Position numbers and translations under genes: made by a program. The notes under the pieces were generated by a model that did not search any database, was not told the DNA's origin, and saw nothing but the letters and a program-made list of their open reading frames with translations. Positions 9,565 to 21,613 of a stretch of 64,000 nucleotides of DNA are shown here, piece by piece; position 1 is the first letter of the stretch, and the number at the start of each line of letters is the position of its first letter. Source of the DNA: Pseudomonadota bacterium (lineage in GTDB: Bacteria > Pseudomonadota > Alphaproteobacteria > Rhizobiales > MH13). The stretch spans positions 310,001 to 374,000 of the forward strand of contig JBCCPK010000001.1 of assembly GCA_039024915.1 (NCBI GenBank), written 5' to 3'.

Positions 9565-9640
9565 GCCCAGGTAGCTCAGTTGGTAGAGCATGCGACTGAA
9601 AATCGCAGTGTCGGTGGTTCGATCCCGCCCCTGGGCACCA
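9565..9640 (+). tRNA. tRNA-Phe (anticodon GAA)
   Basis: A complete cloverleaf: acceptor GCCCAGG/CCTGGGC, D arm GCTC/GAGC, anticodon stem TGCGA/TCGCA with loop CTGAAAA, T arm GGTGG/CCGCC, discriminator A and encoded CCA. Its last 16 bases are the left copy of the att repeat of the following element, so the tRNA is regenerated intact after integration. Confidence 0.97.
9625..9640 (+). repeat. Left att core (attL) within tRNA-Phe
   Basis: CCGCCCCTGGGCACCA, identical to 21598-21613. It covers the 3' T-arm strand, acceptor strand and CCA of the tRNA. Confidence 0.9.
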
Positions 9641-9685
9641 TTCATTTCCGAACCTCAATGTTTACAGTGGGTTGGGTGGCGATTT

Positions 9686-9734
9686 TGTCCCACCGTCTGC
9701 CACCACGTCGAAAAGTGGGACACTTTTGTCCTAC
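9686..9734. repeat. Arm-type GTGGGACA repeats, left end
   Basis: Copies are TGTCCCAC at 9686-9693, GTGGGACACTTTT at 9715-9727 and a one-mismatch TGTCCTAC at 9727-9734 that runs into the integrase stop codon. The same motif recurs at the other end of the element, so these are probable integrase or excisionase arm sites (inference). Confidence 0.6.
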
Positions 9735-10795
9735 TTCCGTTCCGCCGTCATGCGCTTCAGGGCGCTTTCCGCGCGGGTCTTCTGACTGGCGGCACGGGTG
9801 TAGCGGGTGACTTCCTTCGAAGTCCGGTGGCCCGTAATCGCCATGATCTCGAATTCGGTGCAGCCCATTTCGGCGAGCCGCGCGGCGGCGGCCTTGCGGA
9901 GTCCGTGGACAGAGCATTGGGGCAGCCCTGCTTCGTCGCACCACTTGCGGAAGCGATTTCCGAAACCGTTCGACGTGAAGGGCCGATTGAACGCCGTCAC
10001 CAGGAACGTCAGGTCCCCTGTGGGGCTGGCGTCGATGATCCGCTGAAGGTCTTCCACGATGGGGATTTCCTGACGGACAGGCGAGCGGTTCCGGTTCTTG
10101 TGCTGAGTGAAGACCAGCCACCCGTCGCGGACGTGCTGTTTGCCCAGCGTCACCAGATCGGAACGCCGCTGGCCCGTGTAGAGCGCCAAGGCGAGCGCCA
10201 GACGCGCCATTGTCCCCACCGGATGCGTCTCTTCGAATTTCTCAATTTCGGCCAAGGTCCAAGAATGGAATCCATCTGCATTCTTCGGGCTGAGATATTC
10301 GATTTCCGTCGCCGGATTCCGATCATGCAGATCATAGCGGACAGCGAATTTGTAGAGTTGGCGAAGCGCCTTCACCATTCCATTCGCAGCTTCAGGGCGG
10401 TCCATCATTTCGTCGCGCCGCGCCCGGATGTGCTTCGGCTGAAGCATCGCGAAGGGCTTGTCCCCGTCGTTCTTGTGCTGACAGAAGCGGCCCAGGATTC
10501 CCCGGCGGACCTTCTGGGTCCGGGGGTCCAGTTCCCGAAACATGGCGGATTTGAAGTATTCAGCGCAGAGGAACCGCACCGAACCGGGCACCAGATGCCC
10601 CACCTTGGGCGCAGTCTTCGCCTTTGATTCGCCCGCGAAAGCGGTCTTGTAGGCCGCCAAGAATTCGGGCGAGCCAACAGGGCTGGGAAGCCTGATTTTC
10701 TTGCCGTTCCGCCGGAAATACAAACGGACGTTGCCGTGGCGATCCACGTCTTCGACGACGTATTTCAAGCGTATCTTCATAGCGTCCCCGGTCAT
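9731..10795 (-). CDS. int: Tyrosine-type integrase
   Basis: A 354 aa site-specific recombinase that would integrate the element at tRNA-Phe. The C-terminal catalytic residues are visible: Arg in LYTGQRRSDL, HGLRK (HxxR), ITGHRTS and the nucleophilic Tyr in EVTRYTRAA. A SAM-like core-binding region precedes them. The stop codon is 91 bp from the tRNA, the normal position for a tRNA-specific integrase. The start may be 10795 or the in-frame ATG at 10780. It lies directly behind the AlpA-like gene, which suggests co-transcription. Confidence 0.95.
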   Translation of the reverse strand: MTGDAMKIRLKYVVEDVDRHGNVRLYFRRNGKKIRLPSPVGSPEFLAAYKTAFAGESKAKTAPKVGHLVPGSVRFLCAEYFKSAMFRELDPRTQKVRRGILGRFCQHKNDGDKPFAMLQPKHIRARRDEMMDRPEAANGMVKALRQLYKFAVRYDLHDRNPATEIEYLSPKNADGFHSWTLAEIEKFEETHPVGTMARLALALALYTGQRRSDLVTLGKQHVRDGWLVFTQHKNRNRSPVRQEIPIVEDLQRIIDASPTGDLTFLVTAFNRPFTSNGFGNRFRKWCDEAGLPQCSVHGLRKAAAARLAEMGCTEFEIMAITGHRTSKEVTRYTRAASQKTRAESALKRMTAERK

Positions 10796-10796
10796 C

Positions 10797-11051
10797 TCAA
10801 TCGTCCCAGGGATTGTCGTCTATGTCGCCGTCACTCGGCAAGGCTTCAAAGAATCTGTCCAGAGCGCGCACGTCCCAGACCTTCCGCCCGTCGATCCTCT
10901 TCGGCTTTGGCATTCGCCCATCGGAAACCATTTCGTCGAATTTCGTCGGGCCGACGCCGACATAGCCCGCCGCCAGGACACGCGACAATCCCCGCTTCGT
11001 GGGCGGAAGGACTGCCGGTTCCCGGCTTTGGGTATGGTCGGCGACGCCCAT
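10797..11051 (-). CDS. AlpA-like small DNA-binding protein, possible excisionase or satellite activator
   Basis: An 84 aa protein with a MerR/AlpA-type winged-helix core: AAGYVGVGPTKFDEMVSDGR, PKPKRIDGRKVWDVRALDRFFEAL. AlpA is the master activator of known Gram-negative PICIs, and excisionases share this fold, so either role is possible. Position next to int fits both. The frame opens at 11132 inside the DUF2190 gene; I chose the ATG at 11051, 10 bp past that gene's stop, though its ribosome-binding site is weak. The C-terminus is acidic (GDIDDNPWDD). Confidence 0.72.
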   Translation of the reverse strand: MGVADHTQSREPAVLPPTKRGLSRVLAAGYVGVGPTKFDEMVSDGRMPKPKRIDGRKVWDVRALDRFFEALPSDGDIDDNPWDD

Positions 11052-11061
11052 CGGGGGAGCG

Positions 11062-11391
11062 TCAGAAGGTGCCGTTGAGACGGACGCCGACGCTCGCCGC
11101 GCCGTTGCCCGCGACGGACACGGCGACGCCAACTTTCGTGTTGCCGCTCGCCGTCGTCGTCACCAGCCCGTCGCTCGACCGCCAGTAGACGGCAGCGCCC
11201 AGGTCGAAGTCGTCGGCGGCCACCTTGGGCATGTCGAAGACGCCCGCCGTCACCAGGACCAGCGGTTCGCCGATGGCAGCATCGCCCGACGCGATGCCGA
11301 AGAGGTTGCCGATCTTCACGCCGTCCCCGCTGGTGGCAGCGGCGGCGGCGGTCACGGTGATGTTCTCACCGGCTTGGACGAAGTTCTTCAT
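11062..11391 (-). CDS. DUF2190 family protein, likely capsid-stabilising decoration protein
   Basis: A 109 aa, Ala/Gly/Val-rich beta protein (MKNFVQAGENITVTAAAAAT, GNLFGIASGDAAIGEPLVLV, GDLGAAVYW-like segment, VGVAVSVAG). DUF2190 proteins lie next to major capsid genes and are treated as head decoration or fibre-like proteins. ATG 11391 has AAAGGA 8 nt upstream; a GTG six bases earlier is possible and would overlap the gpW-like stop. It belongs to the head operon. Confidence 0.8.
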   Translation of the reverse strand: MKNFVQAGENITVTAAAAATSGDGVKIGNLFGIASGDAAIGEPLVLVTAGVFDMPKVAADDFDLGAAVYWRSSDGLVTTTASGNTKVGVAVSVAGNGAASVGVRLNGTF

Positions 11392-11393
11392 GG

Positions 11394-11624
11394 TCACAGT
11401 CCTTTCGAAGTCTGGAATCGGATGGTGTGCGGGGGCGTCCGTGCCCCCGCGACTTGGGCTTCGAGGTCCGCGACATACCGCTGAAGGTCATTGCGGCTGA
11501 CGGGGCGAAACTCGATTTTCTCGCCGTTCTGGTCCGTGACGGACACCGCTTGGGTGCCGGTCAGAAGCTGGTGAAGCGCCTCTTGCGCCTCTTCCAGCCG
11601 CTCTTGGGTGGTCAGGACGGCCAT
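11394..11624 (-). CDS. gpW-like head-to-tail joining (head-completion) protein
   Basis: 76 aa with the layout of phage lambda gpW: N-terminal helix (TQERLEEAQEALHQLLTGTQ), a beta hairpin (VSVTDQNGEKIEFRPVS) and a second helix (NDLQRYVADLEAQV). gpW plugs the portal after DNA packaging and creates the site to which tails join. In an element without tail genes, this interface must match the tail connector of another phage. It lies between the capsid and decoration genes, 3 bp from the capsid stop. Confidence 0.82.
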   Translation of the reverse strand: MAVLTTQERLEEAQEALHQLLTGTQAVSVTDQNGEKIEFRPVSRNDLQRYVADLEAQVAGARTPPHTIRFQTSKGL

Positions 11625-11627
11625 GGG

Positions 11628-12908
11628 TTACGCGCCCGGAATCTGGTGCGCGCCGCGCCAGTCCAGCCAGCCCGCGCCGAAGTCCAGGAAGGCGCGATAC
11701 TTCATGCCCAGCGTGTCCCAGGCTTCCGTCCGCTGAATCTGGACGCCCTGGGCGGACGACAGGTAGGCGTATTGCATCGCTGCCAGCCGCGCCGGGTCCG
11801 CGAAGACATACCACGTCCCCGCCGGAAGGCGCGGTTCCACCAGAAGAGTGAGCTTCCCGCCGAAGGGGTTCACGGCGCCCGTGGTGGACGGCTGGATCGA
11901 CGCCAGCACCCGTTCCGCTTCGGTTTCGAGGTCCGCGCCCACCAGAAGGAAGCGGGGCGCGGCGGCGATGATGGTCTTGCCGTCCAGGCCCTTGCGGGTC
12001 CGCATGGCTTGCCGCGCTTCGGTCAGGGCGTCCACGTCGGGGGCGCTCGCCGTGCCGATGTTGTCGCGGCTGGCGTCGAAGACCGGGTTCCCGTCCGACA
12101 GGTTCGGGTTGCCGGTCAGAAGGTCCACCAGAATGTCGGCTTCGGTCTGGGCCGCCGCTTCGCCCAGGGCTGCCGTCATGTCCCCCAGAAGGCCCAGATC
12201 GTCGTCGATCATCAGCTTCCGGGACACCGTGACGCCGCGCGCGAAGGTCTTCAGGCGCATCGTCTCGCCGTTCTCCGCGCGGCTGGTGTGGGTGATCTCG
12301 CCGGACTCGGCGAGTTCTTCCAGGCGGCCCATTTCGCCCAGGCGGATCGACGTGGACTCCTTGAAGTTCGGAAGCGTCCGCTGGCGACAGAGCCGTTTCA
12401 GCGGCGACTCGGCGGCCCGGTAGGTGTCCAGAGCCACCTTGCCCATGGCGTTGCTCACGGTCAGGGGGAAGTCGCTGGTGGTGTGCTCACCGGCCCTCGT
12501 GAACACTTCGTCCGCCGACATGCCGCGCGTGGACACGCCCGCGCGGGTGAGGGAGTCGACGGCCATGTCCCGAAGGCTGAGGTTCAGGAAGGGCCGAACC
12601 TCTTCGGCGGGGTCCCCGCCCGCGCCCATGCGGAAGGCCAGCGCGTCGGACTGGCGGCGGGTGATCGTCGCCGGGTCGTCGTTCGCCGGGGCATGGGACC
12701 GGATGATCGGGGCCGCACGGCGACGCTCTTGCAGGGCGTCATAGACCTCGGCCTTGGCCCGCGTCATGTCCGCGCCCGCGTCGATCAGATCGTCCGCCAC
12801 CTGGGCGTCCAGGCCAGCGGTGCGGACAAGAGCGCGGATGTCGCGTCGGCGGGTCGTTTCGAGTTCCGCCGCATCCGGCGAAACCGTTTCGATGATGTCG
12901 TCAGGCAT
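11628..12908 (-). CDS. Possible nested in-frame start producing the capsid part alone (426 aa)
   Basis: Within the fusion gene, the codon at 12908-12906 is ATG (MPDDIIETV) and is preceded by AAGAGGAG six bases upstream, a near-ideal ribosome-binding site exactly at the protease/capsid boundary. Phage lambda uses the same arrangement for its protease/scaffold pair C/Nu3. It would supply capsid in excess over protease-capsid fusion. Sequence-based inference only; the fusion may instead be cleaved. Confidence 0.5.
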   Translation of the reverse strand: MPDDIIETVSPDAAELETTRRRDIRALVRTAGLDAQVADDLIDAGADMTRAKAEVYDALQERRRAAPIIRSHAPANDDPATITRRQSDALAFRMGAGGDPAEEVRPFLNLSLRDMAVDSLTRAGVSTRGMSADEVFTRAGEHTTSDFPLTVSNAMGKVALDTYRAAESPLKRLCRQRTLPNFKESTSIRLGEMGRLEELAESGEITHTSRAENGETMRLKTFARGVTVSRKLMIDDDLGLLGDMTAALGEAAAQTEADILVDLLTGNPNLSDGNPVFDASRDNIGTASAPDVDALTEARQAMRTRKGLDGKTIIAAAPRFLLVGADLETEAERVLASIQPSTTGAVNPFGGKLTLLVEPRLPAGTWYVFADPARLAAMQYAYLSSAQGVQIQRTEAWDTLGMKYRAFLDFGAGWLDWRGAHQIPGA

Positions 12909-13403
12909 GGGGGACTCCTCTTTTTGCCGCAGACGGGCGGACGGGTCCGCCGGGTTCGAGGTCAGGGTGACTTCGGTGATCTTCCAGGCGGTGGGCGACT
13001 TCACCCGTCCCGCGCTGGTCTGTTTCTCGGTCCATCCCGCGACTCGGTAGCCGATGCTGACACCGCTGACGGTTCCGTCCGCGATCCGCTGCACCACGGG
13101 CGCAGCATCTTCGGCGGCGGTCATCTCCAGAACGGCGGTCACGGACCCACCTTCCAGAGCGACAGACCGAACCCGCCCCAGGGTGTCACGCACCGTCGCG
13201 GTTCGGTGACTGTCCAGGACCGGCAAGCCTTCGGCGGCGGACAAGTCCAGCGTGTCCGCCGTCAGGATTTCGAGGAACGGGCCGCGCGCATCGCGACGGC
13301 GCACCGGGGACGGCGTGGCGATGACCGCCGAAACCGTTCGGGCGTCGGGGTCCCAGGTGTTCGAGCGCGTCGGCGCGGCCCGCGTCAGGGTGTCAGTCGT
13401 CAT
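11628..13403 (-). CDS. Prohead protease / major capsid fusion protein
   Basis: 591 aa. Residues about 15-155 match the S78 prohead-protease fold, with putative catalytic His in LPVLDSHR, Ser in VSGVSIGYR and the conserved Glu in KITEVTLTSNPAD. The remainder is a major capsid protein (LCRQRTLPNFKESTSIRLG, FARGVTVSRKLMIDDDLG, YVFADPARLAAMQYAYL). Protease-capsid fusions occur in some phages. ATG 13403 with GGAG 7 nt upstream overlaps the portal stop; the frame opens 30 bp earlier. An internal start at 12908 could yield the capsid alone. Confidence 0.88.
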   Translation of the reverse strand: MTTDTLTRAAPTRSNTWDPDARTVSAVIATPSPVRRRDARGPFLEILTADTLDLSAAEGLPVLDSHRTATVRDTLGRVRSVALEGGSVTAVLEMTAAEDAAPVVQRIADGTVSGVSIGYRVAGWTEKQTSAGRVKSPTAWKITEVTLTSNPADPSARLRQKEESPMPDDIIETVSPDAAELETTRRRDIRALVRTAGLDAQVADDLIDAGADMTRAKAEVYDALQERRRAAPIIRSHAPANDDPATITRRQSDALAFRMGAGGDPAEEVRPFLNLSLRDMAVDSLTRAGVSTRGMSADEVFTRAGEHTTSDFPLTVSNAMGKVALDTYRAAESPLKRLCRQRTLPNFKESTSIRLGEMGRLEELAESGEITHTSRAENGETMRLKTFARGVTVSRKLMIDDDLGLLGDMTAALGEAAAQTEADILVDLLTGNPNLSDGNPVFDASRDNIGTASAPDVDALTEARQAMRTRKGLDGKTIIAAAPRFLLVGADLETEAERVLASIQPSTTGAVNPFGGKLTLLVEPRLPAGTWYVFADPARLAAMQYAYLSSAQGVQIQRTEAWDTLGMKYRAFLDFGAGWLDWRGAHQIPGA

Positions 13404-13405
13404 GG
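13384..13405 (-). repeat. 22 bp repeat at the portal/capsid gene overlap (copy 1)
   Basis: This copy is identical to 18500-18521 over 22 bp. It covers the portal stop, the capsid-fusion ATG and the codons for MTTDTLT. Both copies sit at a stop/start overlap where the upstream protein ends HDD and the downstream one begins MTTDTLT. Confidence 0.85.
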
Positions 13406-14781
13406 GCGGACTCCGGGGTGTCGGCGGGGCCAAAGGTCAGCCCAAGGTCGCGTTCGCGGGCGCGGTCGGCGGCGATCTCTTCGTCCAGATCGTCCGCGTT
13501 CCAGCCCAATTCGTTGATGGCCTTCGTTCGGCTGGTCAGCCCCAGGGCCAGTGCCTCTTTGACCGCCGCCAAGTCCTTCTGGGGGTCCACTTGCATCGGG
13601 CGGGGCATGATCCATTCCGCCGCCAGATCGGGCGTCAGGTCCAAGCGCCCGGACAGGACTTCGGTGACGATCCAGCGTCGCCAGACAGGCCGCAGGAATT
13701 GCGGGACCAGCGTTCCGTATTGCGCTTGCTCCACGCGCGCCCGGAAGGGCAGCAGGCCCGCCCGAAGGGACGAATAGTTCGCATTGGTCAGGTCGCCCGA
13801 CAGAAGGTGTTCGGGAAGTCCTAGGGCGGCGGCGAGCGCTTGAAGGTTCATCCGCAGGAACGCGGGCGAGTCCTTGGCTGCGTCGGGCGCGCTGAATTTC
13901 ACGTCCACGCCAGCAGGCAGCACCTTCAGGGTTCCGGGTTCCAGGCCGGTATCCATGATGTTCCCGGCTTGCTCGCCGTCGAAGGGCAGCGCGCCCGTCG
14001 AGTTCAGATCGGTCAGGAAGCCCGCGAACATGGCGCTAGTCTTCACCCCCACCAGAAGGGCGTCCATGAGCTGGTCCAGTTCGGACGCGGACAGAACCGC
14101 CGGGGCCAGCCATGACAGGCCGCGAACCTGCCCCGCGCCTAGGGGGCGCATGATGTGCAACACGTCGGCGGCGTCGAAGCGGATCGACGGGGCGTAATCG
14201 GTGAAGGTCGAATGCGGGCGGTGGGGAAGTAGCCAATAGGCGACGCGGCGGCCCTGGGCGTCGAATTCCACGCCGCCCGCAATCATCCGCCCGCCGCCCA
14301 ATTCGGCGGTTTTCGCTTCGTCCAGTTGTTCGGGCGCGACGACTTGAAGGCGCAACCCGTCCGTGTCGTCATGGACGATGACCAGAGCTTCCCCGTCCAC
14401 GATCAGGTGACGGGCAATGTCGCGCTGAAGCCCCCAGAAGTCCGACCGCCCCGCCGCGTCCGCGTCGTCCGCCCAGGTCTCGAATGCGCGGCTTGCGGTG
14501 CGTCGCGTGTCGGCGTCATCGGCGCGCGGTGTCGGGCGTATTCCGGCACCCACCAGTGCGGCGGACCAGTTGTCCACGCCGTTGGCCAGGAAGGGGTTAT
14601 TCGTTGCCAGATACCGGGCGCGGGACCGCGTGAGCGTCGCACCTGCCGCGACTTCCGGGTTGATCGGCCCGAAGGTGCCCATGCCCCCGCCACGCCGCCC
14701 ACCAGCCGCCGCGTCGATCATTCGACGGGCGGTCGGCGGACTGGTCCGAAACAGTTTCGGCAGGCGAAGGCGAAGGGCCAC
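13393..14781 (-). CDS. Phage portal protein, lambda gpB type
   Basis: 462 aa, the usual length for the phage_portal_2 family. It forms the dodecameric DNA-entry ring at one capsid vertex. Recognisable segments are TRSRARYLATNNPFLANGVDNW at the N-terminus, RDIARHLIVDGEALVIVHDD, VLHIMRPLGAGQVRGLSWLAPAV (quoted in part), MNLQALAAALGLPEHLLSGDLTNANYSSLR and the C-terminal QKDLAAVKEALALGLTS. The start is GTG 14781, 2 bp after the stop of the upstream gene; its end overlaps the capsid start by 11 bp, so translational coupling is likely. Confidence 0.92.
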   Translation of the reverse strand: MALRLRLPKLFRTSPPTARRMIDAAAGGRRGGGMGTFGPINPEVAAGATLTRSRARYLATNNPFLANGVDNWSAALVGAGIRPTPRADDADTRRTASRAFETWADDADAAGRSDFWGLQRDIARHLIVDGEALVIVHDDTDGLRLQVVAPEQLDEAKTAELGGGRMIAGGVEFDAQGRRVAYWLLPHRPHSTFTDYAPSIRFDAADVLHIMRPLGAGQVRGLSWLAPAVLSASELDQLMDALLVGVKTSAMFAGFLTDLNSTGALPFDGEQAGNIMDTGLEPGTLKVLPAGVDVKFSAPDAAKDSPAFLRMNLQALAAALGLPEHLLSGDLTNANYSSLRAGLLPFRARVEQAQYGTLVPQFLRPVWRRWIVTEVLSGRLDLTPDLAAEWIMPRPMQVDPQKDLAAVKEALALGLTSRTKAINELGWNADDLDEEIAADRARERDLGLTFGPADTPESAHDD

Positions 14782-14783
14782 GG

Positions 14784-15281
14784 CTAGTCGCTTTCCAGGG
14801 TGTCGAGAACAGGTTTTGCAAGTGTCGTTACGGGCCAGATAAGAACCTGCGTTGCGCCTTCAGCGGGTTCCGCTTTTTGAACGCTTGCGTCCCCCATGAA
14901 GGCGGGGTTCTGCGGAAACGGAGAGGGGATGTGCTCAATACGAGCGAAGATCGGTTGACCGGATTTGATCGAAGCCAGATTTCGTTCAAACATCGGTTGT
15001 CCGGTCGCGCTCTTCACCTTCCGTAGTTGAAGGTTCAACAACTCGATTGTTCCCCAACTGACGCCGTTCAGGCTGGCGGCCAAAGCGACAACGGCGAACG
15101 CGCAATCCGCTTCGGTGAAGGTCATGGTTTTCCCCTGGGAACGGGGATTGGTGCTACAGATTAGCCCTTTGTCTCGGAGCATCCGCGCGCGGTCATAGAT
15201 GCGCTGACGATCATCGTCGTTTTGATCGACGCCCCAGTTTTTCCAGTAGGCGTCGGCAATTTGTCGAAGGGTGTAGTTCAT
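14784..15281 (-). CDS. Putative MerR/winged-helix-like regulator of the element
   Basis: 165 aa, not assignable to a family with confidence. The N-terminus (MNYTLRQIADAYWKNWGVDQ, then IYDRARMLRDKGLI) has the pattern of a winged-helix DNA-binding domain and is followed by a helical middle (AFAVVALAASLNGVSWGTIE). ATG 15281 has GGGGAG six bases upstream. It lies between cargo genes and portal and reads away from an inverted-repeat operator-like region shared with a small divergent gene, the layout of a phage-type repressor locus. That function is inference; it could also be an accessory structural gene. Confidence 0.5.
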   Translation of the reverse strand: MNYTLRQIADAYWKNWGVDQNDDDRQRIYDRARMLRDKGLICSTNPRSQGKTMTFTEADCAFAVVALAASLNGVSWGTIELLNLQLRKVKSATGQPMFERNLASIKSGQPIFARIEHIPSPFPQNPAFMGDASVQKAEPAEGATQVLIWPVTTLAKPVLDTLESD

Positions 15282-15316
15282 GGCGATCTCCCCGGTGTAG
15301 GCAAGGCGACCATATC

Positions 15317-15346
15317 ACTTGCAAAGTAGATTCGCAAGTTACTTGC
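15317..15346. promoter_or_regulatory. Operator-like inverted repeat in a divergent intergenic region
   Basis: GCAAGT-T-ACTTGC (15334-15346) is a perfect palindrome, with a further half-site ACTTGC at 15317-15322 and GCGCAAG nearby at 15356. It lies 36-65 bp upstream of the putative regulator start. The segment 15282-15471 is otherwise non-coding and more AT-rich than its surroundings. A role as autoregulatory operator is inferred. Confidence 0.5.
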
Positions 15347-15471
15347 AAAATCACTGCGCAAGACCTACACTGTCTCCCACAGTGCGGCTCATCACCGGGC
15401 TGTCCTTCTCTAAATGAGTCGGGGGGCAGGTCTTCCAGGGTTTGCCCCCCGGCAACTCGAAAGCCTCCCCC

Positions 15472-15684
15472 ATGCACCGAACGGACGAACACAGGGCCAA
15501 GGCCCGCTGCTACACAAAAGCCGCCCGCCGGGGGTTGTCCTTCAGGTCCTGCTGGGACGTGAAGCGTGGGGTGTCGAGATACCACATCGTCCGCGACGGG
15601 GATTTCGAGGTCTGGTGGGCCGATCACATCGGAGACGCTGAAGCCTATCTCGACAAGGCCCCGCCCAGGTTGTGGACCGACTAG
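15472..15684 (+). CDS. Small protein of unknown function on the opposite strand (70 aa)
   Basis: The only plus-strand gene I accept in the element. It encodes MHRTDEHRAKARCYTKAARR, then a segment rich in aromatic and acidic residues (YHIVRDGDFEVWWADHIGDA). The frame opens at a TTG at 15442, so the product may be 80 aa; no clear ribosome-binding site supports either start. Its stop overlaps the stop of the convergent cargo gene by two bases. No family recognised; it could be a small regulator or anti-phage/anti-helper factor, but nothing in the sequence shows this. Confidence 0.5.
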   Translation: MHRTDEHRAKARCYTKAARRGLSFRSCWDVKRGVSRYHIVRDGDFEVWWADHIGDAEAYLDKAPPRLWTD

Positions 15685-16745
15685 CTATCGAATAGGTCCA
15701 AATCGACCTTTGAGAGCAGCCAACCAAACGGGAAATGTTGATTTGTGAAGCATTGGTCACAGTCTAGGCGCTCGCCGATGAAGAGGCGCGGTGCATCCGC
15801 CTTCTTGATACGAAGCTGAGCCTCACAGACCGGACACTGCATGAATTCGGCGAAGTTCGAATTCACAAAGTTCGTCATCCGAGAGCGGCCCTTGGTAAAG
15901 AGAGCTTCATATGCACCAAGGGAAGTGAACAACATCCAATTTTGGTATTTCTTGCTGGGTTCTCTCATCCGTCCATACAATTCAATCTGCATGATATGAA
16001 GAAAGAGAATCAGCATTGCTAGTTGGGCATATGTCCCACCGGCATAGATGTCTTCATCCATCGGATTCTTGAAGATGAAATTGAGGTTATAGTCTTCGGT
16101 CTGGTTTCTTCGAAACTCCGTCACTAGGTGCGTAGCTTTATCGAAAAGCCCTGCAAAACCTAGATCGTTCTGAAAGTTGAAAACGGTGTCATAGACCGCA
16201 TCGGGGTTTGTGAAGCTGCACCCCCGGCTCGCCTTCATGGCGGCCTCAAGCAGAGCCTTTATCCCTGCTTCGTCCAAGTCCCTCCGATTCAGCAGGTTCT
16301 TTGCGTCAGACTTCATCTGGTCGAAGAACGCCACTTCGTCCGCGCACATCTGAGCGACGATCAACATGCCTTCTTTCAGGGGTTTACGAAGGAGGGAGAA
16401 AGCGACAGTAAATTTTCGCTTCTCCAGCGCCCGAAGAGCTTCGTAAATGAAGTGGAGCATATCAGAAAAAAGCGCATTACAGACGTGATTTACGACCGCG
16501 CGCCTTTCTAAGTCCCCGCGTCCCGACTTATCCAGAAACTCCAAGATATGGATGCCGCTTGCCAATAGGCGGCGATCTTCTTCGGACTCGATCTCAAATT
16601 GAATATGCCCCGCCTTCTGGATTTCCATTTGCACAAGCAGCGCTGCCATGAGGTCGTGCAGGTGGAAGCAAAATTCGTGCTGCGCCCTATACTTTTCCGG
16701 GATGTTTTGTAGTCTGTCCGGGTCGATCAGTCCGATTGTCTTCAA
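15681..16745 (-). CDS. Cargo gene: helical protein with C-terminal zinc ribbon, function unknown (354 aa)
   Basis: Predominantly helical protein ending in a zinc-ribbon pair (CPVC at the start, CDQC about 25 residues later), with FSLLRKPLKEGMLIVAQMCA and TYAQLAMLILFLHIMQIELY in the middle. An RxxxxH pattern (RAVVNH) resembles HEPN nucleases but is too short to prove it. The frame opens at 16871 inside terL, yet the TTG at 16745 has GGAGG seven bases upstream and starts right after the terL stop, so I chose it. Its base composition is visibly richer in A/T than terL and portal, and it splits the packaging and head genes. This suggests recently acquired cargo, such as a defence gene. Confidence 0.7.
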   Translation of the reverse strand: MKTIGLIDPDRLQNIPEKYRAQHEFCFHLHDLMAALLVQMEIQKAGHIQFEIESEEDRRLLASGIHILEFLDKSGRGDLERRAVVNHVCNALFSDMLHFIYEALRALEKRKFTVAFSLLRKPLKEGMLIVAQMCADEVAFFDQMKSDAKNLLNRRDLDEAGIKALLEAAMKASRGCSFTNPDAVYDTVFNFQNDLGFAGLFDKATHLVTEFRRNQTEDYNLNFIFKNPMDEDIYAGGTYAQLAMLILFLHIMQIELYGRMREPSKKYQNWMLFTSLGAYEALFTKGRSRMTNFVNSNFAEFMQCPVCEAQLRIKKADAPRLFIGERLDCDQCFTNQHFPFGWLLSKVDLDLFDS

Positions 16746-16749
16746 ATCA

Positions 16750-18519
16750 TCACCCTCCAAGCCAGCGTGACTTAATGACAGTAGGTCTATTCGGAGTCGC
16801 AGCTTTGGTCGAGACTTCCGCTTCACGTCGTTCCAGGTCCACGCCCACCAGCGGGCGCACGGCGAGCGCATAGACCATGCAGTCCAGCGACTCGGCCCGT
16901 CGCCCCGTAATCCGTTCCCAGACGCGCACGGGCGCGCCCCGCTTGTAGCGCACCAGACGGCGTTCGCTGGCCAGTTCTTCGAAGAACCTGTCTTCCAGGC
17001 TATCGCTGAAGCGCACCGTGCGCCCGCGCGACAGGTGCGACGCCAGCGTGGCCTTCAGCCCGTCCACGCCCAGGATGAAGAGCCGGGACCCGCGCGTTTC
17101 GCTGGCCTTGATCGACGGGCGCGCGCCAGGTGCCCCCTTAATGGCCACGATCCGGCGAGCGAAGCGCGGGCGGCAGAAGGACATAACCGGGTCCATGGTC
17201 TCGCCGTCCCCGGCGTCGATTGCCACGGCGTCCATGCGTAAGGTCCCGCCGCCAGGGTGCGGCCACTGTCCGCAAAGGAAGTCGTCCAGTTCCGCCCAGG
17301 TGTGATCTTCGTGGGGAGTGCCCCAGATGACATGCTGCGCCAGAACGAAGAAGTCCGTCTTCCCGTGTCCCAGGATCACGATTTCCAGGCGGTCCCGCTG
17401 AACGTCGACTCCGGCGGTCAGGACCAGCACGTCCGGGGGCAGTGCGTCCAGCCCGAACCGTTCCCGCCGCGCGGCCAAGGCGGCTTCGTCGATCTCTTCC
17501 GCCGCCTCTCGCCAGCCTTCGGCCAGGATCGTGTTCACGAAGGTCTGTAGCTGGTCCGGGTGCGCTTTGGCCGCGATGAATTCCACCGCCAGCTTGCCCC
17601 AGGATGCGTTCGCCAGCGTGGACACCAGGGCGTTGAGCCGGAAGCCCGCGTGGCATTCGATCTCGGGGCGCGTCGCTCGCCATGCCCCGGCTTCGACCAT
17701 GGCCGCCTTGTGCGTCTCTGCGATCAGGGACTCGCAATGGGGGCAGCGGAAGGCCGCCGTCTGGGGCTTGTCCGGTTCCCATTCGATGTGCCGCCATTGG
17801 ATTTCGGTGAAGGCCCCGCAGTCCGGGCACGGGACTTCGAAGACGCGGGCGTCGCTCTGGGCGTAGGACCGCAGGACGTTGGACGTGTCCAGAAGCGTCG
17901 GGGTCGATCCCAGGATGATCTTGCGGTTCGCGAAGCTGAGGGTCCGCCGTTCGGCCAAGGTGATCGGCGAGCCTTCGGCGGACGGTTCCATCGCGTCGGC
18001 TTCGTCGATCAAGAGAATTCGCACGTTGTGGCGGCGCAGGTTCCGGGGGGATTTGGCGGCGACGATCTTCAGCGACCCGCCTGGGAAGCGGCGGGACAGA
18101 AGCGTGGACCGCCCGGACTCGTCAGCGTCACCAGAGATGAGGCCGCGCAAGGCCGGGGTCGCGTCGAAGATCGGTTCCAGATCAGAGACGACGTAATCGC
18201 GGGCGTCGGCTTCGGTGGGTAGTAGGGCCAGAATCGGGGACGGCTCATTCGCAACGTAGCTGGCGAGTGCGCCAGTCAGAAGCGTCGTGAACCCGACGCG
18301 CACGGGCTTCACCAGCGTCACACGCTCCACCAGCGGGTCGCTGATGGCCTCTGCAATGCCCCGCTGATAGGGCCAGAGGGTGACGCGCCCAGGTAGGGCA
18401 GAGACGCCTTCAGGAAGCCGCATGTGAGCTTCCATCCAATCGCCCAGGGACAGGCGCGGCGGGGGCTTCAGGGCGGCCAGCGCGCGGCCTCTGGCGGCGG
18501 TCAGGGTGTCAGTCGTCAT
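16750..18519 (-). CDS. terL: Terminase large subunit, GpA family
   Basis: 589 aa packaging ATPase/nuclease of the lambda gpA type (PF05876-like). Seen are LWPYQRGIAEAISDPLVERV near the N-terminus, the Walker A-like KPVRVGFTT, Walker B ILLIDEAD, the cysteine pairs CPDC and CPHC of the zinc segment and the nuclease-region VLTAGVDVQRDRLEI. It cuts concatemers at cos and pumps DNA into proheads through the portal. The start overlaps the terS stop by 11 bp within the 22 bp repeat. Confidence 0.93.
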   Translation of the reverse strand: MTTDTLTAARGRALAALKPPPRLSLGDWMEAHMRLPEGVSALPGRVTLWPYQRGIAEAISDPLVERVTLVKPVRVGFTTLLTGALASYVANEPSPILALLPTEADARDYVVSDLEPIFDATPALRGLISGDADESGRSTLLSRRFPGGSLKIVAAKSPRNLRRHNVRILLIDEADAMEPSAEGSPITLAERRTLSFANRKIILGSTPTLLDTSNVLRSYAQSDARVFEVPCPDCGAFTEIQWRHIEWEPDKPQTAAFRCPHCESLIAETHKAAMVEAGAWRATRPEIECHAGFRLNALVSTLANASWGKLAVEFIAAKAHPDQLQTFVNTILAEGWREAAEEIDEAALAARRERFGLDALPPDVLVLTAGVDVQRDRLEIVILGHGKTDFFVLAQHVIWGTPHEDHTWAELDDFLCGQWPHPGGGTLRMDAVAIDAGDGETMDPVMSFCRPRFARRIVAIKGAPGARPSIKASETRGSRLFILGVDGLKATLASHLSRGRTVRFSDSLEDRFFEELASERRLVRYKRGAPVRVWERITGRRAESLDCMVYALAVRPLVGVDLERREAEVSTKAATPNRPTVIKSRWLGG

Positions 18520-18521
18520 GG
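18500..18521 (-). repeat. 22 bp repeat at the terS/terL gene overlap (copy 2)
   Basis: This copy is identical to 13384-13405. It spans the terS stop, the terL ATG and the codons MTTDTLT. Identity stops on both sides within one or two bases. Confidence 0.85.
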
Positions 18522-19015
18522 CTGGCCTCTTCGAGCGCGTCGCGGACTTCGCGGTCGATCATCTGCACGTCATGGGCGGTCAGGTGCCCAAGACGCTGTT
18601 GCACCCGCGCGGGGATGGCGAGCATGGCGGCGCGCACGTCCCGAAGGACCGACGCCCAAGCGGCTTCCACGTCCGCGACGGGGACCAGCGCCGCACGGGT
18701 CTTGGCGTTGGCCAATTCGATCTTCTCGGCATTGGCGCGGGCCAGCCGCAGCTTCTCGGCATTCAGTTCGGGGTCCGTCGTCGTCCGCCCCTGCCGCGCG
18801 TCTCGAAGGTGGGCGGCATAGGCGAGGATGGCGGCCCGCAAATCGAACCGCTTGTCGTCCGTCCGGGGGATGACGCCCTGACGGGCCAGCCGGTGAACCT
18901 GGGTCCCGTTGACGCCCAGCCATGCGCCGACTTCATCCGCGCTCACCGTGTCCGCGTCGGCAGGTTCGGGGCCGCCGCCCAGGACGGCTTCAATGTCCGG
19001 GTCATAGGCGGTCAT
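18509..19015 (-). CDS. terS: Terminase small subunit (Nu1-like)
   Basis: 168 aa. The N-terminal winged-helix region (VSADEVGAWLGVNGTQVHRLARQGVI) is the Nu1-type DNA-recognition fold. A coiled-coil linker follows (LNAEKLRLARANAEKIELAN), then a helical C-terminus for contact with TerL. It would recognise the element's own packaging site. The frame stays open to 19225, but ATG 19015 has GGGGGA five bases upstream and gives the family length. The iteron cluster directly upstream is where lambda has its cos region. Confidence 0.82.
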   Translation of the reverse strand: MTAYDPDIEAVLGGGPEPADADTVSADEVGAWLGVNGTQVHRLARQGVIPRTDDKRFDLRAAILAYAAHLRDARQGRTTTDPELNAEKLRLARANAEKIELANAKTRAALVPVADVEAAWASVLRDVRAAMLAIPARVQQRLGHLTAHDVQMIDREVRDALEEASHDD

Positions 19016-19025
19016 GCGTGTCCCC

Positions 19026-19220
19026 CATTCCAGGATTTCTTGAAATTCCAGAGATGCTGAAATGCCCCTGCGCGAGTCCCAGATTCCAGAATTTCTGGAA
19101 AGCGTGGAAAGCCGGGGCTCCGCGCCCCCCGCGACGCGCCACGCCCAGGAAGGACCCGCGCGGCATGTCCCCGGTCCCTGGGATTTCCAGAGTTTCCAGA
19201 GATTGCCAGAATGCTTCTGG
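19026..19220. repeat. TTCCAGA iteron cluster upstream of terS (candidate packaging site)
   Basis: TTCCAG(A/G) occurs at 19027, 19045, 19084 (as the palindrome TTCCAG-AATTT-CTGGAA, 19084-19100), 19184 and 19193, with near-copies TTGCCAGA at 19203 and CTTCTGG at 19214. It lies 10-205 bp in front of terS, the place of cos in lambdoid phages. Together with the next entry it fills the 336 bp gene-free gap 19016-19351. Role inferred from position. Confidence 0.55.
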
Positions 19221-19237
19221 TTCACGGGGCAGCGGGT

Positions 19238-19347
19238 GAGACAACGAGACAGCCCCTAAAGGGGCTTGTCTCGGTCTGTCTCGCCTCCCGCCGCAATGCC
19301 GGGGTGAGACAATCGAGACTTGTCTCGCCTTTGTCTCGGTCTGTCTC
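19238..19347. repeat. GAGACA/TGTCTC iteron cluster downstream of the primase gene (candidate replication origin)
   Basis: Eight exact hexamers lie in 110 bp: GAGACA at 19238, 19246 and 19306; TGTCTC at 19267, 19277, 19321, 19332 and 19342. The first four flank a hairpin (AGCCCC-TAAA-GGGGCT, 19251-19266). Satellite and phage origins are often iteron arrays next to the replication gene, so this is a plausible binding region for the primase-helicase. Confidence 0.6.
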
Positions 19348-19351
19348 GGTT

Positions 19352-21379
19352 TCACGGGTCCGTCTCCCCTTCGTCCAAGTCGTCAAAATCGTCCGTCAGA
19401 TCGTCCCCCGTTCGCACCAGGGACACTTTAGACTCGGCCAGTTCGATCACGTTCTTCCGCACAAGTTCTCGCAATGCCCTGTTGAACGTGTCCTTACGGC
19501 TGGCGGGACGATCCGAAGTTGAAACTGAAGCGTCGTTTATGGCCGCGTCCCGAAGGGCCGTCCTGTCCACACTTGCCGCGCCGTTCGCTAGTCGTCCGAC
19601 GACCGCCATGACCGCCCGTTCGGTGGGCGACAAACTGGGCGTCGTCTTGGCCGCCCCAGGGGGCAATTCGTCCGCGAACGCCGCCTGAATTTCGTCGCCG
19701 TCGTCGTCGGGGCCGAACCCGTGAACGCCGATGGTGAAGGCAATGTCCAGATCGCACGGGCCGTTGCGGTTCTTCGTCAGTCTGCCCCGGACTATCCCGT
19801 TCTGGTCCTTCGCCGTCAGGTGCAAGGCCATGTCGAGCGCGCCGTTCAAGACGCTATGGCCGCGCGGCGTGTTGCCTTCCGCCTTCGTCCCGTGGTGGAC
19901 CAGAATGACCGCCGCGCCCCACTTGGTCAGCGCCCGCGCGACGGCGACGACTCGGCCCATGCCCTTCGCGTCGTTCTCTTCCAGCCCAGGGAAGGTCATG
20001 GCCAAGGTGTCGATCACGATCAGGCCGGGACGGTCCCGCTTCACCGCGCGCCGCAGTTCCTTCAGATCGGGCGCGTCCTGGGCGAAGAGGTTGGACACGC
20101 CGCCCACCAGCTTGAAGTCCTGGGCGCTGCCATGGGCGGCCCTGAGCGCCCGCACACGCCAGCCCATGCCCGCTTCGTCTTCGGCGGCCACATAAAAGAC
20201 GGACGCTTCTTTCGTCCGCAGTCCGAACGTCTCGCGTCCCTGGGCGACGGCATAGCCGATGCTGGGGGCGATCAGGCTCTTGCCCGCCCCAGGGTCGCCG
20301 AAGATGCAGCCGATTTGCCCAGGCGCGATCAGGCCCTTCACCACATAGCCTTGCGGGGCTTCAGCGGCGCATTCGTCGGGCGTCCTGAAGGTGAGCTTCC
20401 CAGGCTTCGCGGGCGTAGGGTCGTCCAGGCCCAGGATGCGGGCGATCTCGCCATCCAGATCGTCGTCGGCGTCCAGGTCGTCGAAGTCGTCTTCATTGAC
20501 TTCCGGGTCCGGGGGATAGCGCGGGACCTTGCGGCCCGTCTTCCGTCCACTCTTGATCGTGGCCAGACAGGCTTCCTTGCCGTCTTCCTTCAGCAGCCCG
20601 TTCGCCGCGCAGGCGGCCAAGAGCCGGAACCCGACTTCGTTCGCGTCCAGCAGCCCCAGGGCTTCGACGCCGCCCAGGCGGAAGGCCGCGTCGTTCAAGG
20701 CATGGTTGCGCCCGCCGGGTTCTGCGTCTGCCAGGGCCGCGCACACGTCGTCCAGTTCCCGCCGCGCCCAGGCGCGGTCATGGTCGCTCGCGTCCGGGGC
20801 CATGGGCTTCACCGGCTCTTCCGCGCGCCGCATGGGCTTCAGCGCGTCGGGCCAGTCGGGCAGCCCCAGCACGTCGTCGGCGATATGTGTGTCCAGAACT
20901 TCGAAGACGCCCTCTCCGTTGACCGCGCCCATGGCGTGGACGTAGCCGCCTTCGCCCCGCACATCGACTCCGTCTGCGATCTTCGACGCCGAATTGGTCA
21001 GGCCCTTCCGGTGCCGGAAATAGATGTGACTTCCGCCGCTGGGCGTCTGGACGCGGACATGGCTCAGGGCGTCGGGGTCAAGCCCCAGGGACCGAAGGGC
21101 AGCGTGGCCGTCTTTCCCATTCTTCATGTCCACGTCCAGGACGCTCACGCCGCTTTTCGCGCCCGTTGGCATGGCAAACATGGCGTCGGGCCAGCGGTCC
21201 CACCAGCGGCGCACCTGGGCGGCGTCCGCCGTCGCCGCGTCCTTCCACTTCACCAGCGGCTTGCGGTCCTGTGACACCGGGAAAACAGGGATACCAGCGC
21301 GGGCGAGCTTCAGCGCGGCGGCCATGTTGGGGTTGCTCTTCGGTTGTCGAGTGTGGTATTCAGATACCGCGCTGGTCAT
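19352..21379 (-). CDS. Bifunctional primase-polymerase / RepA-like helicase
   Basis: 675 aa replication protein. The N-terminal half is an AEP-type prim-pol domain (GIPVFPVSQDRKPLVKWKDA, then VSVLDVDMKNGKDG with the DxD pair). The C-terminal half is a RepA/RecA-like ATPase: Walker A FGDPGAGKS, Walker B LIVIDTLAMTF, HHGTKAEGNTPRGHSVLNGA, then a winged-helix-like tail. It should replicate the excised element. The frame opens at 21445; ATG 21379 has GGAGAG upstream and gives the natural N-terminus MTSAVSEYHTRQ. It is the first gene of the minus-strand array. Confidence 0.9.
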   Translation of the reverse strand: MTSAVSEYHTRQPKSNPNMAAALKLARAGIPVFPVSQDRKPLVKWKDAATADAAQVRRWWDRWPDAMFAMPTGAKSGVSVLDVDMKNGKDGHAALRSLGLDPDALSHVRVQTPSGGSHIYFRHRKGLTNSASKIADGVDVRGEGGYVHAMGAVNGEGVFEVLDTHIADDVLGLPDWPDALKPMRRAEEPVKPMAPDASDHDRAWARRELDDVCAALADAEPGGRNHALNDAAFRLGGVEALGLLDANEVGFRLLAACAANGLLKEDGKEACLATIKSGRKTGRKVPRYPPDPEVNEDDFDDLDADDDLDGEIARILGLDDPTPAKPGKLTFRTPDECAAEAPQGYVVKGLIAPGQIGCIFGDPGAGKSLIAPSIGYAVAQGRETFGLRTKEASVFYVAAEDEAGMGWRVRALRAAHGSAQDFKLVGGVSNLFAQDAPDLKELRRAVKRDRPGLIVIDTLAMTFPGLEENDAKGMGRVVAVARALTKWGAAVILVHHGTKAEGNTPRGHSVLNGALDMALHLTAKDQNGIVRGRLTKNRNGPCDLDIAFTIGVHGFGPDDDGDEIQAAFADELPPGAAKTTPSLSPTERAVMAVVGRLANGAASVDRTALRDAAINDASVSTSDRPASRKDTFNRALRELVRKNVIELAESKVSLVRTGDDLTDDFDDLDEGETDP

Positions 21380-21429
21380 GCTTCTTCTCTCCGGTTTGGC
21401 AGGACCCGCGTGAGTCCCAATCGGTCTTG

Positions 21430-21469
21430 CCGCCGTCCAGGTCATCCCCCTGGGCGGCGGTTTCCGTTT
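21430..21469 (+). terminator. Hairpin resembling a terminator, in the leader of the primase gene
   Basis: A 12 bp stem (CCGCCGTCCAGG / CCTGGGCGGCGG, one G-T pair, 7 nt loop) is followed on the plus strand by TTTCCGTTT. It could stop plus-strand transcripts or act as a structured leader or operator of the primase transcript. The T tract is imperfect. Confidence 0.4.
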
Positions 21470-21503
21470 CAGGTCGATTGTCGTGAGTTGGCGGGGCTTT
21501 TTG

Positions 21504-21559
21504 GTGGGACACTTTTCCCGAAAAACCCTGAGAAATCATGGGACATTTTGGTGTCCCAC
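21504..21559. repeat. Arm-type GTGGGACA repeats, right end
   Basis: Copies are GTGGGACACTTTT at 21504-21516 (identical to the left-end copy), ATGGGACA at 21538-21545 and TGTCCCAC at 21552-21559. The last two form an inverted repeat around TTTTGG. They lie 39-94 bp inside attR. Confidence 0.6.
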
Positions 21560-21597
21560 TTTCCGTTATCTATCTGATTTTTATAGGTTTCTGCATT

Positions 21598-21613
21598 CCG
21601 CCCCTGGGCACCA
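21598..21613 (+). repeat. Right att core (attR)
   Basis: The second copy of CCGCCCCTGGGCACCA, an orphan tRNA-Phe 3' fragment with no tRNA in front of it. Identity ends at a C/T mismatch on the left and diverges directly after CCA, so 16 bp is the exact core. Chromosomal DNA resumes here; 21614-21730 shows nothing else recognisable. Confidence 0.9.

Follow-up and report, generated by a model that had tools for sequence, protein, structure and literature searches.

Is the short block of phage head genes in the tRNA-Phe gene of this alphaproteobacterial genome a damaged prophage or a satellite that forms its own capsid? The initial annotation of the window, the whole analysed stretch of 64,000 nucleotides, had favoured a capsid-forming PICI (cf-PICI). 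It would have been refuted by the other half of a split prophage elsewhere in the genome or by full-length prophages among the close relatives.

Anatomy of the element and its insertion site

The element has a length of 11,989 bp (9625-21613) and resides in the 3' end of a tRNA-Phe (gaa) gene, which was located with ARAGORN (9565..9640, plus strand). It is bounded by two exact copies of the 16-bp att repeat CCGCCCCTGGGCACCA, and the window contains no more of them. One copy is the last 16 bp of the tRNA gene (9625..9640, plus strand), the other forms the distal end (21598..21613, plus strand); the annotated borders were exact. On either side lie ordinary host genes, which code for a chemotaxis receptor and an inositol monophosphatase. 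All genes between the repeats lie on the minus strand in the order rep-terS-terL-cargo-MerR-portal-protease/capsid-gpW-cement-AlpA-int.

Pfam and PHROG profiles bore out all genes named initially, from the integrase, AlpA-like and prim-pol/helicase genes to those for terminase, portal, protease-capsid, gpW-like and DUF2190 proteins. The replication protein combines a Prim-Pol and an AAA_25 helicase domain (19352..21445; PF09250 2.4e-30, PF13481 5.3e-31). The small terminase was rightly recognised and is Nu1-like (phrog_57 5e-29), and only its extent had to be corrected: the open reading frame as called reaches 19225 and is too long, as an alignment of relatives places the conserved start at 19015 (18509..19015). 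The predicted packaging module of lambda type was recovered with a large terminase of the GpA type (16750..18519; PF05876 7.3e-84, PF20454 1.3e-80), a gpB portal (13393..14781; PF05136 1e-80) and the head-tail adaptor gpW (Ad1), which is relocated behind the capsid gene (11394..11624; PF02831 4.1e-14, phrog_75 1.3e-21). The S78 prohead protease and the major capsid protein are fused (11628..13433; PF04586 and PF25209 7.9e-47, phrog_4523 1.9e-151). A DUF2190 head decoration or cement protein follows (11062..11397; PF09956 7.5e-27). The AlpA/Xis-like helix-turn-helix gene (10797..11132) has no Pfam match and is supported by PHROGs 25900 (1.4e-14) and 66 (3.7e-05) only; its true start is probably internal. 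The tyrosine integrase (9731..10795; PF00589 1.3e-17) shares 97% identity with its counterpart in an Acuticoccus element (L062). Two further genes had not been named: a MerR-type gene (14784-15281) and an orphan cargo gene (15681-16871).

The head set thus comprises capsid, protease, portal, connector and both terminase subunits. The single connector is gpW, and no gpFII-like stopper or neck protein is encoded in the element. Neither Pfam nor PHROGs matched a tail, baseplate or lysis family within the element, as had been noted for the 12.0 kb, or an HNH family. With the att repeats and the gene set, this makes the original observation correct. The element fulfils the general criterion of a phage satellite: it is discrete and integrated, has an integrase and att sites, is far below phage size and lacks a complete virion or lysis gene set. 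It fails the criteria of a gene transfer agent (GTA) by the presence of an integrase, att repeats and a probable cos, and by the absence of a tail.

The occupancy of the site varies among congeners. The inositol monophosphatase is not shared with them, so the comparison is based on the chemotaxis gene-tRNA-Phe neighbourhood, which is common to them. In genomes G002 and G003 a single att core is present without an element. In G001, two exact copies of this att core enclose an element of 9,361 bp (L212 8423-17783; G001:C288). This sibling has a related integrase (68%) and AlpA (67%) together with replication and MerR-like genes; head genes and a cos motif were not found in it. The place of the head genes is taken by a SIR2 and a 920-aa protein, a pair that matches the split Dsr1 defence pair. 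The integration, regulation and replication chassis consequently occurs with and without the head module. G146, G172 and G194 were also considered as a clean empty-site comparison and rejected: the flanks are colinear, but G172 has another 2 kb there. The tRNA-Arg element of G172 is absent from its two sister genomes, but the far flank was not found beside the tRNA.

A family of tail-less satellites in Alphaproteobacteria

The element is a member of an extensive and old family of tail-less satellites in Alphaproteobacteria that had not been filed before. Searches with the capsid protein yielded 21 loci in bacterial genomes, mostly of Rhodobacteraceae/Paracoccaceae together with Acuticoccus and one Rhizobiales MAG, and 32 loci in viral contigs, many of them catalogued as 11-13 kb proviruses. 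Capsid relatives were present in 38 of 199 genomes of the same order. These counts depend on pattern-limited searches. Maps made with tblastn revealed a recurrent order, rep-terS-terL-[variable]-portal-capsid-(gpW)-cement-(alpA)-int, and the same architecture in more than 40 loci. At least 26 elements, including that of the window, have mapped att repeats and a size of 10.2-12.7 kb (median ~12.1 kb). They use tRNA genes for Phe, Ser, Gly, Arg, Pro, Cys, Met, Glu and Tyr. Deeper relatives are likewise short (9.9-18.5 kb) and lie at Lys, Val, Arg, Gly, Phe, Pro and Met tRNAs. Replication modules are interchangeable, with Prim-Pol/AAA_25, a D5-type primase-helicase (nine pooled proteins) or an O-like initiator. 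The position of int and alpA at the end of the head operon and of replication at its start, emphasised in the initial annotation, holds for the window and is usual in the family. It is not a universal rule: int is inverted in L025, L046 and L047 and located at the opposite end in L063.

The absence of tail genes extends to the relatives as far as the families listed for them show. Among 95 non-core open reading frames of 23 elements, no tail family appeared in the best 25 of 71 PHROG and the best 25 of 29 Pfam families. The families listed for these pooled frames included no lysis and no HNH family either. Individual members deviate in structure. In the rearranged relatives L036 and L185, terS/terL, or terL, come after the cement gene. 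Interrupted copies are L050, with a capsid frameshift, and L064, whose portal is split and whose cargo slot contains a DDE transposase. The 32-kb viral contig L067 apparently carries two family head modules in opposite orientation with an inverted terL fragment, and may be an assembly artefact. The cultured type strain Rhodovulum bhavnagarense DSM 24766 harbours two different satellites of the family, L044 at tRNA-Ser and L048 at tRNA-Cys. Members of the family also occur in the cultured type strains Sediminimonas qiaohouensis DSM 21189, Gemmobacter aquatilis DSM 3857 and Rhodovulum steppense DSM 21153.

The head genes are under purifying selection, with dN/dS ratios of 0.06-0.37 overall and of 0.06-0.33 for terL, portal, capsid and gpW. 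In close relatives the ratios are ~0.09-0.13 for terL and portal, ~0.13-0.27 for the capsid and ~0.06-0.22 for gpW. The best identities in 50,697 phage records were low, with 30.5% for the capsid, 34.8% for terL and 42.8% for the portal. In a capsid tree of 70 rows, all 35 satellite rows fell inside one clade of 37 rows (SH-aLRT 97). The remaining two rows of the clade are unclassified, and none of the 23 tailed-phage capsids was inside. The labels 'satellite' and 'phage' were based partly on neighbour genes within 1.5 kb. A more careful tree without the unclassified rows did not reject a single satellite clade (p-AU 0.469), nor did it prove one.

The position of gpW separates satellites and phages with the same head. 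In tailed phages in which it is annotated (Rhodobacter phages, Microcystis yong2 and Vibrio 2.096), it is located between terL and portal, and LPPA33, MinM1 and PBb002 have a short open reading frame at this position. The satellites have gpW behind the capsid gene, with cargo and the MerR gene filling the gap between terL and portal. The split recurs across 385 genomes of the class and 398 of the phylum: gpW and cement (and alpA/int) come after a satellite-type capsid, whereas a phage-type capsid precedes cement, head-tail and tail genes. The att-bounded close relatives are all tail-less and of 10.2-12.7 kb, and no full-length prophage was among them.

Putative packaging site, replication origin and cargo slot

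The DNA upstream of terS is conserved across relatives despite differing neighbouring replication genes. Its core reads GGGTCC(C/T)TCC...GCGGGGGGCGCGGAGCCCCG and is followed by TCCAGAA-type repeats, a layout which we take to resemble cosN and cosB of lambda. In the window, this non-coding region (142 bp; 19016..19157, minus strand) comprises GGGTCCTTCCTGGGCGTGGCGCGTCGCGGGGGGCGCGGAGCCCCGG and then the cosB-like TCCAGAA repeats. Of 26 elements, 24 have the GGGTCCYTCC site directly ahead of terS. As a GGGTCCYT-type site it is 554-766 bp away from terL on the upstream side, even where the proteins are only 35-60% identical. The site moves with terS in the rearranged L036 and is also found beside terS in a second element of the host. 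A scan of 2.9 million viral contigs for the generalised or extended site retrieved 15 contigs of at most 17 kb, all 15 with a satellite terS adjacent.

The site also appears to be an exchange border between elements. Of seven pairs with the element of the window (WIN) or among its relatives, whole-element alignments start exactly at the site (0 bp) for WIN/L043, L048/L049 and L048/L052, and 3-11 bp from it for L049/L052, L044/L045, WIN/L062 and WIN/L071. The conservation, the similarity border and the matches limited to satellites together mark the site as a probable cos; cleavage data are not available. The Synechococcus phage MinM1, a complete phage whose head is of this family, has GGGTCCTTCC directly upstream of its terS (L127 position 4492). 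The site may therefore predate the satellites.

A candidate for an iteron replication origin is located between rep and cos. Eight of the element's ten GAGACA/TGTCTC hexamers cluster at 19238-19347 (no strand assigned). Free circular or terminally redundant forms were not found among the viral contigs checked for terminal repeats.

The gene directly 5' of the portal (14784..15281, minus strand, 165 aa) is poorly conserved in sequence and constant in place in the alignment of relatives. Its AlphaFold model (pLDDT 82.5) matched best with CvkR (7xn2, E 8e-3) in Foldseek and then with other MerR proteins; the E-values are weak and the ranking is consistent. The sequence profile also retrieves CvkR (E 0.0086). 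A MerR-type regulator is inferred from this prediction.

Between terL and the MerR gene is a slot in which cargo can be exchanged, as comparison of the sequences demonstrates. Across relatives the slot encodes HEPN, SEC-C or DUF3800 proteins or a transposase, and PADLOC found only single weak matches in the pooled cargo. The cargo gene of the window (15681..16871, minus strand) encodes Zn-ribbon-like Cys pairs at the C-terminus. Pfam, PHROGs and PADLOC gave no match for it, and the viral contigs contain no relative. L046 and L047 come from different genera. Over the length of the element they share 93.6-96% identity except for a swapped cargo slot, and the common ground of their flanks is limited to the tRNA region. 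Near-identity, unrelated flanks and the swapped slot document a recent transfer with cargo exchange.

A probable satellite with its own head and an inferred borrowed tail, and the alternatives

The element very probably is an integrated, autonomously replicating satellite, with a head that it makes and fills itself and with a tail, as well as lysis functions, taken from another phage. This reading is made without helper, induction or particle data. The first step is evident from the sequence: the tyrosine integrase inserts the element into the 3' end of tRNA-Phe, with AlpA/Xis encoded beside int. The following steps are inferred. Helper infection or induction may lead to excision, perhaps under the AlpA or the MerR-type protein, and the excised element would replicate from the GAGACA iterons by its own primase-helicase. 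With strong comparative support, the Nu1/GpA-type terminase is predicted to cut the element's own cos upstream of terS, and the DNA would be packed into a head of its own portal, protease/capsid and cement proteins. GpW may prime the neck, and a helper would provide stopper, tail and lysis. The exchange of cargo between terL and the MerR gene, in comparison, is visible among the relatives.

The tight size range of 10-13 kb suggests a small capsid or a fixed copy number in a larger one. Several 12-kb copies in a full-size head, in place of one copy in a small head, is a variant of the satellite reading that does not exclude it and is rather unlikely. Three copies would fit tailed phages with this type of head, whose genomes have 38-45 kb, and PICMIs package concatemers in helper heads (PMC10803314). 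The satellite has its own head proteins, so a small head is possible, and data are lacking either way.

Two possible tail donors exist in the host genome (G000). A tailed prophage with an HK97-type head is located at C1 ~54-74 kb (L114/L115, G000:C1 45001-85000), encoding a phrog_12 portal, a phrog_9 terL, a tail fibre and a PF10145 tape measure. It is a possible tail donor; no helper was identified. A GTA cluster at C3 ~262-282 kb (L116, G000:C3 262001-282000) has tail proteins of 1307 and 296 aa. Both tail modules adjoin their own unrelated heads. Elsewhere in the genome, a capsid of the satellite's type occurs only in a second satellite without a tail (G000:C5:368809-380210, L003 13810 to L004 6210), and the split prophage that would have refuted the satellite was not found. 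The second satellite comprises a tRNA-Arg gene, an HTH_36 replication gene, terS, a GpA terL, DUF3800 cargo, a portal-protease fusion, capsid, a gpW-like gene, cement, HTH_17/Xis and integrase, and has its own GGGTCCTTCC site.

It is highly improbable that the satellite takes its tail from the resident GTA instead of a phage. The genome has the cluster, and GTA-like tail proteins occur in Rhodobacter phages that share the satellite's head type, but no shared head-tail connector was shown, and the tailed prophage of this genome or virulent phages could serve just as well. Moreover, the heads and adaptors of GTAs belong to the HK97 kind. A prophage decayed by deletion of its tail and lysis half is very unlikely as well. 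Its head genes would be clearly phage-derived, as they are here, and tailed phages such as RcKemmy have the same order, terS-terL-portal-capsid-cement. This is opposed by dozens of relatives with the same content and nearly equal length in many tRNA genes, by the selection on the head genes, by a capsid clade free of tailed phages and by the conserved cos. The relocated gpW and the insertion of cargo and MerR gene between terL and portal cannot result from a tail deletion. Idiosyncratic deletions, relaxed selection and tailed close relatives were not observed, and a defective or deleted prophage is largely refuted. The complete head and packaging set, the probable cos and the element's own replication would also suit a self-sufficient minimal virus that leaves the cell tail-less or with an unrecognised short tail. 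This is barely credible: the conserved genes are limited to head, regulation, replication and integration without a lysis gene, they are too few to include a tail, and the other genes are variable cargo.

The satellite with its own head was compared with known systems. According to the literature, cf-PICI capsids belong to PF05065 (PMC13230959), the packaging module includes an HNH endonuclease (PMC10690885), and cf-PICIs have 14 kb on average and are found mainly in Enterobacteriaceae, Pasteurella and Firmicutes (PMC10803314, PMC13230959, PMC10690885). Like EcCIEDL933 and its kin, the element is integrated, has int, AlpA, a replication gene with a primase, complete head and packaging genes and its own terminase, and lacks a tail; cf-PICIs use helper tails. 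In contrast, its head is of the lambda/Mu type and not of the HK97 type, and it has a PF25209/gpT-like capsid fused to the protease, a GpA terminase, no HNH endonuclease, a size of ~12 kb, an alphaproteobacterial host, int usually last in the head operon and a MerR gene with cargo slot between terL and portal. None of 15 family capsids matched PF05065 at E<=1; all 15 matched PF25209, PF10124 and PF04586. The proposed cf-PICI identity is consequently retained in function and not in homology, and the element is classed with a lineage of capsid-forming satellites in its own right, which evolved independently and works like cf-PICIs.

The Streptomyces satellites MulchRoom and MiniFlayer evolved independently and have a full head and packaging set with a helper-dependent tail (PMC10690885). 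They differ by terminal direct repeats, virulent helpers, other head genes and their affiliation to Actinomycetota. The tail-less Vibrio satellite-plasmid cf-PISP encodes a capsid (PMC13230959), but it is episomal, has a PF05065 capsid and groups with gammaproteobacterial cf-PICIs. The Rhodobacter phages RcKemmy and RcMamaDuck share GpA terminase, portal, capsid-protease fusion, gpW and decoration protein; they are complete 41-kb tailed phages with gpW between terL and portal and a capsid of ~30% identity. P4-like satellites, PICIs, PLEs and PICMIs are also small, tRNA-integrated or island elements with own replication and int/AlpA-like genes. Unlike the element, they encode no capsid and use the head of the helper. 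The literature available for searching contained no report of alphaproteobacterial satellites of this kind.

A more far-reaching reading is doubtful: an ancient, self-contained lineage with lambda/Mu-type heads, independent of cf-PICIs, that has a cos of its own, a MerR regulator specific to satellites and a defence/cargo slot, which coexists with capsid-less siblings on a shared int/AlpA/MerR/replication chassis and may dock several kinds of tails including those of GTAs. The findings suggest that the combination of own head and borrowed tail evolved again with an unrelated head type, and that such satellites are widespread in Alphaproteobacteria, including marine Rhodobacteraceae. Where viral catalogues contain ~12-kb proviruses with these genes, the entries should be reinterpreted as satellites and not as truncated prophages. 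The predicted cos, the predicted regulator, the cargo slot and the cultured type strains make the mechanism directly testable.
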